This document shows positions 34,191 through 39,382 of a stretch of 43,528 bases of DNA, piece by piece. Source of the DNA: Lysobacterales bacterium (GTDB lineage Bacteria; Pseudomonadota; Gammaproteobacteria; Xanthomonadales; Rhodanobacteraceae); assembly GCA_015655335.1 (NCBI GenBank), contig JAATFF010000027.1:1-43528 (forward strand). The letters are read 5' to 3'. Each line of letters starts with the position of its first letter. Within the stretch, counting starts at the first letter, position 1. The notes beneath the pieces were generated by a model. The model had not been told where the DNA came from and searched no databases. It worked only from the letters and a program-made list of their open reading frames with translations. The position numbers and the translations under genes are program-made.

Positions 34191-34444
34191 CGTTCGCTCC
34201 TGTGAATGAACGGACGACCCGTGCGACGGATCGTCAGGCGATGTCATGTGCCGGTGCTGCAACGATTTGCGTTGTCCCCAAGGCCGCCTGGTTCGAGGCG
34301 GAGCCAGGCCGGAAGAAGGCTGGCTTAGATGAAATCTGAGCAAGATTGAGGCTAAGGCTATGTGAAGAACGGGGAGGTCCCACGCCGCTGTATCGGAACT
34401 GTTACAACTTGCGCGCGGAAACGCCTTGTGGTCTAGTCGGGTTC

Positions 34445-34570
34445 ATGAACGCTCTCGTCGCCATCCGCATTCCTTACGCCGCCATCGTGGCCGCCAGGGT
34501 CGTAGCTGCGAACGGCCTGAATAACAACGCCAATAATAATCCCCGTAACCATGGGTGGGCCGGCGTGTAG
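34445..34570 (+). CDS. Asn-rich leader peptide of asnB
   Basis: A 41-codon frame upstream of asnB. After MNALVAIRIPYAA... the second half reads NGLNNNANNNPRNHGWAGV: eight Asn codons between positions 23 and 35 (AAC and AAT mixed), plus N2. The stop (TAG, 34568-34570) is 24 bases before a strong terminator, and asnB follows. This is the layout of the his, trp and leu leaders, with codons of the amino acid made by the downstream gene. Ribosomes held at Asn codons when tRNA-Asn is poorly charged would favour antitermination. The ribosome-binding site is weak (GGG before ATG). The start codon could lie elsewhere, but the Asn run and stop are fixed. Confidence 0.8.
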   Translation: MNALVAIRIPYAAIVAARVVAANGLNNNANNNPRNHGWAGV

Positions 34571-34622
34571 ACGAAAGCAACAGATACACACGCAAAAGGG
34601 CCCGCCAAGTGCGGGCCCTTTT
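34513..34622 (+). promoter_or_regulatory. Candidate transcription attenuator of asnB (four pairing segments)
   Basis: Segment 1, CGGCCTG (34513-34519), overlaps the first Asn codons and pairs with segment 2 at 34556-34562 (five GC pairs, two GU). Segment 2, GGTGGGCC (34554-34561), pairs with segment 3, GGCCCGCC (34599-34606), in eight pairs with one GU. Segment 3 belongs to the left arm of the terminator (34594-34605), which pairs with segment 4 (34611-34622). A ribosome held at the Asn run covers segment 1 and frees 2 to pair with 3, so asnB is read; a ribosome that reaches the stop covers 2 and the terminator forms. This matches the classical amino-acid attenuator logic. All pairings are my reading by eye, not folded by software. 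Confidence 0.75.
34594..34622 (+). terminator. Attenuator terminator upstream of asnB
   Basis: A perfect 12-bp stem AAAAGGGCCCGC / GCGGGCCCTTTT with a five-base loop and a further GTTTTTAT tail on the plus strand. It lies between the Asn-rich leader frame and the asnB start (40 bases downstream), where a terminator would be pointless unless conditional. Confidence 0.92.
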
Positions 34623-34662
34623 GTTTTTATGGTTTGACCAACCAAGCGAAGGGAAATTTGTC

Positions 34663-36339
34663 ATGTGCGCCATCTTTGGAATGTTCGATCTGCAGCCGGG
34701 CGATGATTTGGCTGCGTTACGCCTACTGGCGCTAGAGCTATCGCAGCGCCAGCGCCACCGCGGACCGGATTGGAGCGGCGTATTTGTGGATGCCGGCGTG
34801 ATCCTGGTGCACGAGCGCCTCGCGATTGTCGATCCGGCCAGCGGCGCTCAACCATTGCGTTCCCGCAATGGCCATCTGGCGCTGGCGGTGAACGGTGAGA
34901 TCTACAACCACCGCGAGTTGCGCGCCGAAAGCGACTTTGACTTCACCACCGGCTCGGATTGCGAGGTCATCAATGCGCTTTACCAGGAACACGGCGCCGA
35001 TTTTCTCGACAAGCTCAACGGCATCTTTGCGTTTGCGCTGTGGGACGGCGATGCCCGGCGCTATCTGATTGCACGCGACCCCATGGGTGTTTGCCCGCTC
35101 TATTGGGGCCACGATGTGCAAGGACGGTTATGTGTGGCATCGGAGATGAAGGCCTTGGTCGGTGTCTGTGCCGACGTTGCGCCATTTCCGCCCGGGCACG
35201 TCTATGACAGCACTGTCGGCGAACTGCAGCGTTATTACAGCCGCCCCTGGCGCGATTACGCGCAGACAAAAGGACAATCGCCAGCCCCCGGCAAACTGCG
35301 GGAGGCGTTTGAGCAGGCTGTGCATCGTCAACTGATGACGGACGTCCCCTATGGCGTGTTGTTGTCCGGTGGCTTGGATTCCTCGTTGGTTGCCGCATGC
35401 GCCGCACGCTACGCGCGCGAACGTGTCGAAGACGACGATCGCAGCGAAGCGTGGTGGCCGCGACTGCATTCCTTCGCCATCGGTTTGGAAGGTTCGCCCG
35501 ACCTCGCGGCCGCGAAAGTGGTGGGCGAAGCACTGGGCACGGTGCATCACGGTTTCGTCTACACGTTCTGGGAGGGGCTGGATGCCTTGCCGGAGGTGAT
35601 TCGGCATATCGAAACCTACGACGTCACCACCATCCGCGCCTCCACGCCGATGTACCTGTTAGCGCGCCGCATCAAGGCGATGGGCGTGAAGATGGTGCTA
35701 TCGGGCGAAGGCGCCGACGAAATCTTCGGTGGCTACCTCTATTTCCACAAAGCGCCTTCGGCCGAGGCCTTCCACGAAGAAACCGTGCGCAAGCTCGACG
35801 CGTTGCATAGCTACGACTGCTTGCGTGCGAACAAGTCGATGATGGCCTGGGGTGTGGAGGCTCGCGTGCCGTTCCTCGATCTGGAGTTCATGGAAGTCGC
35901 CATGGGCATGGACGCGGCGCACAAGATGGCGGGTAAAGGCCGCATCGAAAAAGCCGTGTTGCGCGAAGCTTTTGACGGCGCGTTGCCCGAAGCGATCCTG
36001 TGGCGCCAGAAAGAGCAGTTCAGCGACGGCGTGGGATATGGCTGGATCGATGGACTGAAAGCGCACGCCGAGCAGGCCATCAGCGATCGCGAGTTCGCTG
36101 CTGCCGCCGCGCGCTATCCGTTCAATACGCCGGCGACCAAGGAGGCTTATCTGTATCGCCGCATCTTCGAGAAATACTTCCCAGGCGAAGCGTGCGCGGC
36201 GACGGTGCCGGGCGGCAAATCGATTGCGTGCTCTTCGCCAGCCGCACTGGCCTGGGATCCGGCGTTTGCCGCCATGGCCGATCCGTCGGGACGTGCGGTG
36301 CGGGATGTGCATAGCCATGCGCTGGAAACAACGCTGTAA
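34663..36339 (+). CDS. asnB: Asparagine synthetase B (glutamine-hydrolysing)
   Basis: A 558-residue enzyme that makes asparagine from aspartate, glutamine and ATP. After Met removal Cys2 (MCAIFG) is the N-terminal nucleophile of the class II glutaminase domain (1-190), with RHRGPDWSG and LAVNGEIYNHREL. The synthetase domain has the PP-loop SGGLDSS (235-241), then MVLSGEGADEIFGGYLYF and the conserved Arg/Lys-rich ARVPFLDLEF. The start at 34663 is fixed by the need for Cys2 and has AAGGGAAA upstream; a longer frame upstream would read through the terminator. Expression is probably controlled by the attenuator at 34445-34622 in response to tRNA-Asn charging. It is divergent from the dcaP-like gene. 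Confidence 0.96.
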   Translation: MCAIFGMFDLQPGDDLAALRLLALELSQRQRHRGPDWSGVFVDAGVILVHERLAIVDPASGAQPLRSRNGHLALAVNGEIYNHRELRAESDFDFTTGSDCEVINALYQEHGADFLDKLNGIFAFALWDGDARRYLIARDPMGVCPLYWGHDVQGRLCVASEMKALVGVCADVAPFPPGHVYDSTVGELQRYYSRPWRDYAQTKGQSPAPGKLREAFEQAVHRQLMTDVPYGVLLSGGLDSSLVAACAARYARERVEDDDRSEAWWPRLHSFAIGLEGSPDLAAAKVVGEALGTVHHGFVYTFWEGLDALPEVIRHIETYDVTTIRASTPMYLLARRIKAMGVKMVLSGEGADEIFGGYLYFHKAPSAEAFHEETVRKLDALHSYDCLRANKSMMAWGVEARVPFLDLEFMEVAMGMDAAHKMAGKGRIEKAVLREAFDGALPEAILWRQKEQFSDGVGYGWIDGLKAHAEQAISDREFAAAAARYPFNTPATKEAYLYRRIFEKYFPGEACAATVPGGKSIACSSPAALAWDPAFAAMADPSGRAVRDVHSHALETTL

Positions 36340-36563: not shown

Positions 36564-37689
36564 ATGATCGAAACCAATCCGATCCTCGCGCAGATCACGG
36601 ACCTCAAGGGCCGTATCGAGTCGCTTAGGGGGTATCTTTGACTACGACACCAAGCGTGAACGTCTCGAAGAAGTAAGCCGCGAGCTGGAAAGCCCCACCG
36701 TCTGGGACGACCCGCCGCGCGCGCAGGAACTGGGCCGCGAACGCGCCCGTCTCGACACCATCGTCAGCGGTATCGACCGCATCAAGGCCGGCCTTGCCGA
36801 TGCTGGCGAATTGCTGGAAATGGCCGCCGCCGATGGCGACGAGGCCACCGTTCAATCCGTGGTCACGGATGTCGGCCAGATCGAAGGGCAGGTCGGCAAG
36901 CTGGAATTCCAGCGCATGTTCTCCGGCAAGATGGATTCGGCTAACGCTTTCGTCGACATCCAGGCCGGTGCCGGTGGCACCGAGGCGCAAGACTGGGCCG
37001 AAATACTGCTGCGCATGTATCTGCGCTGGTGTGAATCGCGCGGCTGGAAGACCGAGTTGATGGAAGTGAGTGCGGGCGAAGTGGCCGGCATCAAATCCGC
37101 AACGTTTCGGGTAGAGGGCGATTACGCCTACGGCTGGCTGAAAACCGAAATCGGCGTGCATCGCCTGGTGCGCAAAAGCCCGTTCGATTCCGATAACCGC
37201 CGCCACACCAGCTTCACCTCGGTGTTTGTGGCGCCGGAAGTCGACGACGACATCGACATCGAGATCAATCCGGCCGACCTCAAGACCGACGTGTACCGTT
37301 CGTCCGGTGCCGGTGGTCAGCACGTCAACAAGACCGAATCGGCCGTGCGTATTACGCACTTGCCATCAGGCGTGGTCGTTGCCTGCCAGACCGAGCGCAG
37401 CCAGCATGCCAACCGCGATCGCGCCCTGAAGATGCTGGCCGCGAAGCTGTACGAGCTGGAGATCCAGAAGCGCAATGCCGAGAAGGACGCGCTGGAAGCG
37501 TCCAAGTCGGACATCGGCTGGGGCAGTCAAATCCGCAACTATGTGCTGGATCAGAGCCGCATCAAGGATCTGCGCACGGGTATCGAGCGTACCGATACGC
37601 AGAAGGTGCTCGATGGCGATCTCGATGAATTTGTCGAGGCCAGTTTGAAATCCGGACTGGATGCCGGCGCTAAACGCCTGGATGCGTAG
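36564..37689 (+). CDS. prfB: Peptide chain release factor 2 (with programmed +1 frameshift)
   Basis: The coding sequence is 36564-36638 joined to 36640-37689, 374 residues. It recognises UGA and UAA stops. Domain 2 carries the tripeptide SPF ([12 protein letters not shown]), which reads UGA/UAA, and domain 3 the GGQ loop ([18 protein letters not shown]) that triggers peptidyl-tRNA hydrolysis. The first 25 codons end in CTT before an in-frame TGA; a +1 shift continues into the main frame, as in E. coli and most bacteria. The gene lies before lysS, as is common in gammaproteobacteria. Nothing looks damaged. Confidence 0.96.
36627..36641 (+). promoter_or_regulatory. prfB programmed +1 frameshift site
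   Basis: An internal Shine-Dalgarno-like AGGGGG (36627-36632) lies three bases before the slippery CTT (36636-36638), followed by TGA C (36639-36642). This is the canonical autoregulatory frameshift signal: low RF2 lets the ribosome shift from CTT TGA to the +1 frame and make more RF2. Confidence 0.96.
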
Positions 37690-37840: not shown

Positions 37841-39382
37841 ATGAGCAGCGACAACGCCACACCCGCCAACGCAACCGCCGAAACGACGGTGCAGGATGAG
37901 AACAAACTCATCGCGGAGCGTCGCGAGAAGCTCAACGCGTTGCGCGGGCAGGGCATCGCGTTTCCCAACGATTTCAAGGTCGACAGTTTTGCGGGCGACC
38001 TGCAAACCGAATTCGCCGACAAGGACACGCACAACGCCGAGGCCATCGAAGCGGCCGCACGCCGCGTGAAGGTGGCGGGCCGCATCGTGCTCAAGCGCGT
38101 GCAGGGCAAAGTCAGTTTCGTGCAAATGCAGGACTTCTCCGGTCGCATTCAGTTGTTTATTCATGCCGGTACCGTCGGCGATGCCTACGAAGCCTTCAAA
38201 GGTTGGGATGTGGGCGACATCATCGGTGCCGAAGGCGTGCTGATGCGCACCAAGACTGGCGAGTTGTCGATCAAGGTCGATGTGCTGCGCCTGCTGACCA
38301 AGAGCTTGCGTCCGTTGCCGGACAAGTTTCACGGCCTCGCCGACGTGGAACAGCGTTATCGTCAACGCTATGTCGATTTGATTGTCACCGAAGACGCGCG
38401 GCGCACATTTGCGTTGCGCTCGAAGATCATCGGCTTCATGCGTCAATGGCTGGAAGCGGAGCCGCGCCGCTTCATGGAAGTGGAAACGCCGATGATGCAC
38501 ATCATCCCCGGCGGTGCCACGGCGCGCCCATTCGTCACTCACCATAATGCGTTGGACATCGACCTGTTCCTACGCGTGGCGCCGGAGCTGTACCTCAAGC
38601 GCCTGGTCGTCGGCGGTTTCGATCGCGTGTACGAGATCAATCGCAATTTCCGTAACGAGGGTGTGTCCACGCGTCACAATCCCGAGTTCACGATGCTTGA
38701 GTTGTATCAAGCGTATGCGACCTATCACGAAATCATGGATCTCACTGAGGTCGTGATTCGCGATACGGCGCAAAAAGTATTAGGCACCACGCAGCTCACC
38801 TGGGACGGTGCTGAGATCGATGTCGGTCCGGCCTTTCGTCGTTGGCGCATGGAGGATGCGGTGCTTGAGCTCAACCCGGAGATCAAGCGCGAAGAGCTTC
38901 GTAGTCGCGATGCCATGGTGGTGCATGCCAAGCGTCTGGGCGTGCAAGTGAAGCCCGGTTACGGATGGGGCAAATTGCTGCTGGAAATCTTCGAGAAAAC
39001 GGTCGAACACACTCTGGTGCAGCCGACCTTCATCATCGATCATCCGGTAGAAGTGTCGCCGTTGGCGCGCGAGAACGACACCGACAAGGGCATCACCGAT
39101 CGTTTCGAACTGTTCGTCAACGGTAAAGAGTTGGCTAACGGCTTCTCGGAATTGAACGATCCGGAGGATCAGGCGGCTCGCTTTCAGGCGCAGGTCGACG
39201 CCAAGGATTCCGGCGATGACGAGGCGATGCATTTCGATGCCGACTACATTCGCGCGTTGGAAGTCGGCTTGCCGCCAACGGGTGGCCTTGGCATCGGTAT
39301 CGATCGTCTGGTGATGCTGCTGACCAATTCGTCTTCGATCCGCGACGTGCTGCTGTTCCCGTACATGCGGCCCGAGGCGTAA
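37841..39382 (+). CDS. lysS: Lysyl-tRNA synthetase (class II)
   Basis: A 513-residue enzyme charging tRNA-Lys. The N-terminal OB-fold anticodon domain (about 70-170, [20 protein letters not shown]) is followed by the class II core: motif 2 is visible as [18 protein letters not shown] and motif 3 as [12 protein letters not shown] near the C-terminus. Length is normal. It follows prfB, with the repeat pair in the 150-base gap, and ends convergent to the DUF2461 gene. Confidence 0.96.

Follow-up and report, generated by a model that had tools for sequence, protein, structure and literature searches.

The window analysed here, a stretch of 43,528 nucleotides from a Lysobacterales bacterium, very probably contains a ribosome-mediated transcription attenuator with Asn specificity that controls asnB, a reading that we draw from its sequence and those of its relatives. 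An Asn-codon attenuator of asnB had been proposed in the initial annotation, and this interpretation is now supported by the conservation of the leader frame and by an antiterminator kept in both clades of relatives. The features concerned are the following:

34409 to 34437, + strand: putative leader promoter, with a -35-like TTGCGC (34409-34414), a 17-base spacer, TG (34429-34430) and a -10-like TCTAGT (34432-34437); from the TTG[CT] spacing.
34445 to 34570, + strand: leader peptide ORF of 41 codons plus TAG, on a probably leaderless mRNA; from the sequence and the frames of relatives.
34511 to 34549, + strand: Asn codon cluster (control codons), codons 23-35 with eight Asn codons; from codon counts in leaders.
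34542 to 34555, + strand: predicted local hairpin, 34542-34546 with 34551-34555, joining segment 1 to the first bases of segment 2; from folding and shuffles.
34554 to 34568, + strand: segment 2, GGTGGGCC (34554-34561) plus GCGTGT (34563-34568), lying over the final codons of the leader; from alignment and folding.
34588 to 34606, + strand: segment 3, ACACGC (34588-34593) plus GGCCCGCC (34599-34606), with segment 2 (antiterminator) or segment 4 (terminator) as partner; from alignments.
34592 to 34628, + strand: intrinsic terminator, stem 34592-34605 with 34611-34624 and a T-rich tail to 34628; from a hairpin search, folding and an 88-row alignment.
34663 to 36339, + strand: asnB, asparagine synthase B, 558 aa; PRK09431 at 858.7 bits for a cut-off of 499.

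The leader frame runs from the ATG at 34445 to a TAG ending at 34570 and encodes MNALVAIRIPYAAIVAARVVAANGLNNNANNNPRNHGWAGV. Its coordinates and peptide were read again and agree with the frame described previously (41 codons, eight Asn in codons 23-35), the Asn codons being numbers 23, 26, 27, 28, 30, 31, 32 and 35. The sequence AAYAAYAAYGCCAAYAAYAAY occurs a single time in the window's own genome. We also counted small frames (15-60 aa from the first ATG) over 559,862 bases, i.e. the window and loci L001-L080. Of 4043 such frames, 74 had five or more Asn within 13 codons. In this group, 73 were asnB leaders and the remaining one was a minus-strand frame in L080. This census confirmed that the Asn-rich leader frame is more than chance.

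We investigated the conservation of this frame by scanning genome contigs with the AsnB protein, which yielded 460 relatives, of which the best 80 were used. In 76 of these 80 named relatives, a frame of 25-60 codons that opens with ATG and has three or more Asn within 13 codons was found no more than 900 bases upstream of asnB. Among the four misses, L022 and L051 are contig ends, with 60 and 123 bases upstream. The other two, L072 (250 bases) and L080, have enough upstream sequence yet carry an asnB without a leader frame, which counts against the attenuator. Dyella, Rhodanobacter, Frateuria, Fulvimonas and Dokdonella records all include Asn-rich frames before asnB, a conservation that the initial annotation had named as support for its reading. 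Two records have unexpected names: the asnB of L080 (Rhodococcus maanshanensis NBRC 100610) is 82% and that of L002 (Candidatus Eremiobacteraeota) 96% identical to the window's, probably through contamination or wrong binning.

The frame also extends to two further families of the order. In a sample of 200 genomes from the order, 160 had an AsnB match; some sampled genomes are the same strains as the named loci, so that the two sets overlap. Within the window's own family (f1, which we infer to be Rhodanobacteraceae), the frame precedes asnB in 28 of 29 other genomes with a full-length AsnB match, four more genomes with weak partial matches being left out; the AsnB of the single miss (G067) is 64% identical. 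For family f2, by the same inference Xanthomonadaceae, 33 genomes had a match and 25 were read, 24 of them with the frame (the protein of the miss, G091, is 63% identical), and all three genomes of family f3 have it. The minus-strand loci L087, L094, L096, L098, L102, L103, L106 and L111 all possess an Asn-rich frame, with only three Asn in L103. A short ORF with clustered cognate codons, a trait of leader-peptide attenuators, is conserved among these relatives. From the other families of the order, 52 upstream regions (L140-L149 and L151-L192; only 326 bases in L159) gave one borderline frame, that of L147 (G082, family f8). At this minus-strand locus, asnB is preceded by MFAIYNTINTTNNRLLRSAGSF, a frame of 22 codons, and by a GC hairpin that carries a run of T; this may be an Asn attenuator that is only distantly related or of independent origin.

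Codon usage in the leaders indicates that Asn codons are kept, and not merely an A-rich RNA. Out of 133 leaders collected, 121 were distinct, and their last 24 codons or fewer (2882 codons) include 796 AAC or AAT (437 and 359, respectively) vs. 7 AAA or AAG (1 and 6), while the other two frames together hold only 6 AAC and AAT. The number of Asn per leader ranges from 3 to 10 (median 7) and reaches at least 5 in 112 out of 121. Given an A-rich stretch in a GC-rich background, just before the structured part, the AAC/AAT-rich sequence could be imagined as an unstructured RNA linker or a protein-binding site next to a regulated terminator, the frame being incidental. This codon bias is at odds with such a role, as is the fact that the Asn codons differ in number and position among leaders but remain in frame with the ATG and the stop, and we give the linker almost no probability.

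An arrest peptide would be another reading of the same frame: like TnaC, which responds to tryptophan, an Asn-rich nascent chain could stall the ribosome on free asparagine or another small molecule instead of uncharged tRNA. Leader, terminator and antiterminator would then look alike, and the exit tunnel could accommodate the Asn runs. However, the peptides share little sequence beyond Asn. They range from 20 to about 45 codons and the N-terminal part varies while the Asn codons stay; common ends are LNNNANNN..GWAGV and NNNNRANNNANRWRARA, and those of f2 are quite different, e.g. NNALANNRARPMRVCD. Moreover, stalling on excess Asn would switch synthesis on when it is unneeded. We consider the arrest peptide extremely unlikely, and return to an attenuator that senses tRNA-Asn charging.

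Upstream of the leader frame, a TTG[CT] precedes the ATG by 34-37 bases in 74 of 76 distinct leaders, compared with 57 out of 1520 shifted windows for TTG[CT] at -34 to -38. The elements at 34409-34437 are presumably a sigma-70-type promoter. A start site is expected, from the usual spacing between a -10 element and the start, at the leader ATG or one base before it, given TCTAGT at 34432-34437. No SD-like 4-mer was present at -16 to -5 in any of the 76 distinct leaders, vs. 73 of 76 asnB starts. In the larger set, 111 out of 121 leaders have TTG[CT] at -34 to -38; an SD-like 4-mer accompanies 5 out of 121 leaders and 116 out of 121 asnB starts. The starts of the 76 leaders were chosen by Asn density and length, while the larger set partly used a promoter-like tie-break (and its starts for L085, L087, L112 and L137 are probably wrong); the counts we rely on are therefore those of the 76 leaders. 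Because of the conserved promoter spacing and of the lack of a ribosome-binding site, the leader mRNA is probably leaderless.

An intrinsic terminator, as expected of an attenuator, lies between the leader ORF and the structural gene in the window and in its relatives. The perfect 12-bp stem reported at first is present and GC-rich, with 12 pairs (34594-34605 with 34611-34622), and can be extended to 14. Over 88 rows of alignment, 99.7% of cells keep the terminator pairing and 63 cells are changed on both sides, a value reached in 0 out of 500 shuffles. The asnB gene had rightly been placed beyond this terminator, with a start at 34663 and a protein that matches PRK09431.

The pairing proposed between segments 2 and 3 (34554-34561 with 34599-34606) likewise exists, as 8 pairs including one G-U, and is conserved. 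The predicted fold adds a second antiterminator helix, 34563-34568 with 34588-34593, which was absent from the initial annotation. In f1, 97.3% of cells of the 8-pair helix are paired (88 rows), and at most 57.2% when the helix is slid; no pair is changed on both sides, and the observed values were attained in 500 out of 500 shuffles. The equivalent helix in f2 and f3 is paired in 88.1% of cells (27 rows; at most 41.4% when slid), with two-sided changes in 4 pairs (reached by 1 out of 500 shuffles) and 9 cells (0 out of 500). These two families differ from f1 both at the leader end, commonly GATGCGGGT, and in the terminator arm, ACCCGCATC. The clearest double change is that of L131, with GCAGGCC facing GGCCTGC. 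Covariation of the antiterminator, to which the initial annotation had looked for support, is thus found in the second clade (f2 and f3), f1 having too little variation to test it. The antiterminator excludes the terminator, with covariation only in f2 and f3. Single leaders have antiterminator mismatches, e.g. L048 and L063.

We also calculated duplexes between leader ends and terminator arms for 115 distinct pairs, with a mixed outcome. Cognate pairs averaged -22.5 kcal/mol in f1 and -22.0 kcal/mol in f2, vs. -19.8 and -19.5 kcal/mol for mixtures between f1 and f2. With leaders of f1 or f2, the f3 terminators formed duplexes at least as strong as with their own. Mean z values against base shuffles were -2.9 (f1), -1.3 (f2) and -0.2 (f3), and segment 2 paired more strongly than the preceding coding stretch in 105 out of 115 cases. 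L102 is outside both alignments and this test; L147 is in this test and in neither alignment. As the folding of the whole region of 271 nt is no better than that of dinucleotide shuffles (z = -0.00), the case rests on comparison.

These data also bear on the possibility of a leader that forms a separate small gene or sRNA, ended by its own terminator, with asnB transcribed from a promoter between 34628 and 34663 without attenuation. In relatives, terminator and asnB are separated by 22 bases to 384 or more, which would leave room for a second promoter. In the window, however, just 34 bases separate the T tail from asnB; the leader is linked to asnB in 76 of the best 80 loci out of 460, and its end complements the terminator arm, the two having changed jointly in f2 and f3. 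We regard an independent gene as very unlikely and retain a cis-acting attenuator. Repeats like CATGGATGGCCGGTATGCCGGAAACGCAGGAGCAG are inserted between terminator and asnB in L041 and also in L016, L026, L037 and L048, and put the two up to 384 bases apart.

For segment 1, the pairing first suggested (34513-34519 with 34556-34562) is part of the fold predicted for 34505-34562; its 5' side is, by eye, present in only some Dyella rows, and the local hairpin is more widely kept. The stretch of the local hairpin folds better than its shuffled mean in 86 out of 87 leaders of the GGYGGGCC type and in 6 out of 24 of the GCGGG type, in which the local 1:2 hairpin is largely absent. Ten of the 121 leaders (L006-L009, L067, L070, L075, L102, L130 and L131) are outside the segment-2 pattern and were omitted from these hairpin and spacing measures. 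The nearest Asn codon lies a median of 13, and the farthest 37, bases upstream of segment 2, a spacing that suits an attenuator, and the stop codon ends 9 bases past the segment-2 motif in 85 out of 111 leaders. In the predicted fold of the untranslated RNA (34445-34606), the local hairpin and the antiterminator are present at the same time. Since they coexist, the idea that 1:2 pairing blocks 2:3 pairing gains no support from the predicted fold.

The mechanism that we propose would operate as follows. The RNA polymerase would start at the leader ATG or right beside it, followed by a ribosome that translates the leader. With charged tRNA-Asn, the ribosome would pass the Asn cluster and reach the stop just behind segment 2; segment 2 being covered, the 3:4 terminator would form and transcription would end before asnB. 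When charged tRNA-Asn is short, the ribosome would stall in the Asn cluster and leave segment 2 free to pair with segment 3 through the two helices before segment 4 is made, so that asnB would be transcribed. Predicted folds of RNA stretches freed by the ribosome, chosen from its footprint, are consistent with this scheme. For RNA 34533-34606, free behind a ribosome near codon 26, the predicted structure is the antiterminator with its two helices (-21.5 kcal/mol), and for RNA 34581-34628, free with a ribosome at the stop, it is the terminator (-27.0 kcal/mol). Over 34539-34628, the terminator is favoured (-36.3 vs. -31.4 kcal/mol with the antiterminator enforced); therefore, the switch must be kinetic.

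We then considered the metabolic setting in 31 genomes, i.e. the window's own, 18 more from f1 and 12 from other families. The asnS gene scored over its cut-off in all 31 genomes and asnA in none of the 31, with one match below the cut-off in f5. The gatB gene was detected in 4 out of 31 genomes and in 0 out of the 22 belonging to f1-f3. With asnS present, and gatB and asnA not found in f1-f3, free Asn should therefore set tRNA-Asn charging in these families. It is likely that these leaders form an undescribed class of Asn-specific leader-peptide attenuators on leaderless mRNA, controlling asnB and at least as old as the ancestor shared by the three families. The genomes concerned would obtain their Asn-tRNA from free asparagine, with AsnRS present and neither GatB nor AsnA found.

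Around asnB, prfB (release factor 2) lies on the 3' side (36564-37689 in the window) and is split by an in-frame TGA (36639-36641) within CTTTGAC after AGGGGG, a context that we take to resemble the usual RF2 programmed frameshift site. The part of prfB from 36811 matches positions 73-353 of the prfB profile, and lysS starts at 37841, after prfB. A second, distant gene of the asparagine synthase family is found in the window's own genome (G000:C74; L082 and L083), as two pieces with 42% and 32% identity, the first matching TIGR01536 at 185.6 bits, under the cut-off of 267.1. With this second gene present and an assembly that is 86% complete, we do not claim asnB as the sole synthetase of this genome.

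Searches of known families agreed with the initial annotation, which knew of no leader-peptide attenuator for asnB. With Rfam on the whole window, only a tRNA reached its gathering score, and no T-box matched. A permissive search of 34300-34700 and of 20 relatives returned matches only below the family thresholds, and no T-box in 34300-34700 up to an E value of 10. Two leader families were considered and rejected: Thr_leader (RF00506; 27.3 bits at 34515-34625, + strand, for a gathering score of 55) and Trp_leader (RF00513; 20.7 bits at 34550-34624, + strand, for a gathering score of 41). A survey of the open-access literature, based on titles and the openings of abstracts and with the two most relevant published surveys outside its scope, yielded no asnB leader-peptide attenuator. 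The parts of PMC4833913, PMC11282234, PMC2965389, PMC1183508, PMC2494555 and PMC1262725 that were covered mention none either. The mechanism is a known one; the amino acid and the gene appear to be new, this novelty being provisional.

A covariance model (R1) was built from the f1 leaders and matched 172 out of 369 genomes of the class, many of the matches listed covering the terminator part only. None of the 29 matched loci read (L196-L224) has a frame of 10-60 aa with at least 5 Asn in 13 codons. The second R1 match in the window's own genome (L226) is a terminator beside what by eye resembles a tRNA gene, with no leader.

Ribosome-mediated transcription attenuators are described for trp, his, leu, thr, ilv and pheA in PMC1183508. 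As in these systems, the asnB leader has codons for the amino acid of the downstream gene, a segment 2 at the leader end, and a mutually exclusive antiterminator and terminator. Unlike them, it involves Asn and asnB, a probably leaderless mRNA, and a single synthetase gene instead of a long pathway operon. In Firmicutes, genes under T-box riboswitches include those of asparaginyl-tRNA synthetase (PMC2494555). T-boxes also sense tRNA charging and switch a terminator, but they bind the tRNA directly and have no leader peptide, whereas the window has a leader peptide and no T-box match. A parallel for the 5' end is Sinorhizobium meliloti trpL (rnTrpL), a leaderless attenuator RNA that begins at the leader ATG and from which, according to PMC7298713, a trans-acting sRNA and peptide derive. 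The asnB leader would share this 5' end, predicted here from promoter spacing, but reads Asn instead of Trp, has 41 codons instead of 14 and belongs to another class of Proteobacteria. Following that precedent, the asnB leader might also affect other genes in trans, through its terminated RNA or through its peptide. This appears very unlikely: the peptide is not conserved outside Asn, and such action would come in addition to attenuation, not replace it.

If an Asn-specific attenuator of asnB is indeed at work, the short unannotated frames upstream of asnB would be explained and asparagine would join the amino acids read by leader-peptide attenuators. It would show how one group of bacteria without AsnA or the transamidation route sets its asparagine supply. 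The relatives would then offer a natural series for testing the rules of attenuation, with two antiterminator types, leaders of 20 to about 45 codons, 3-10 Asn and apparently leaderless mRNAs.
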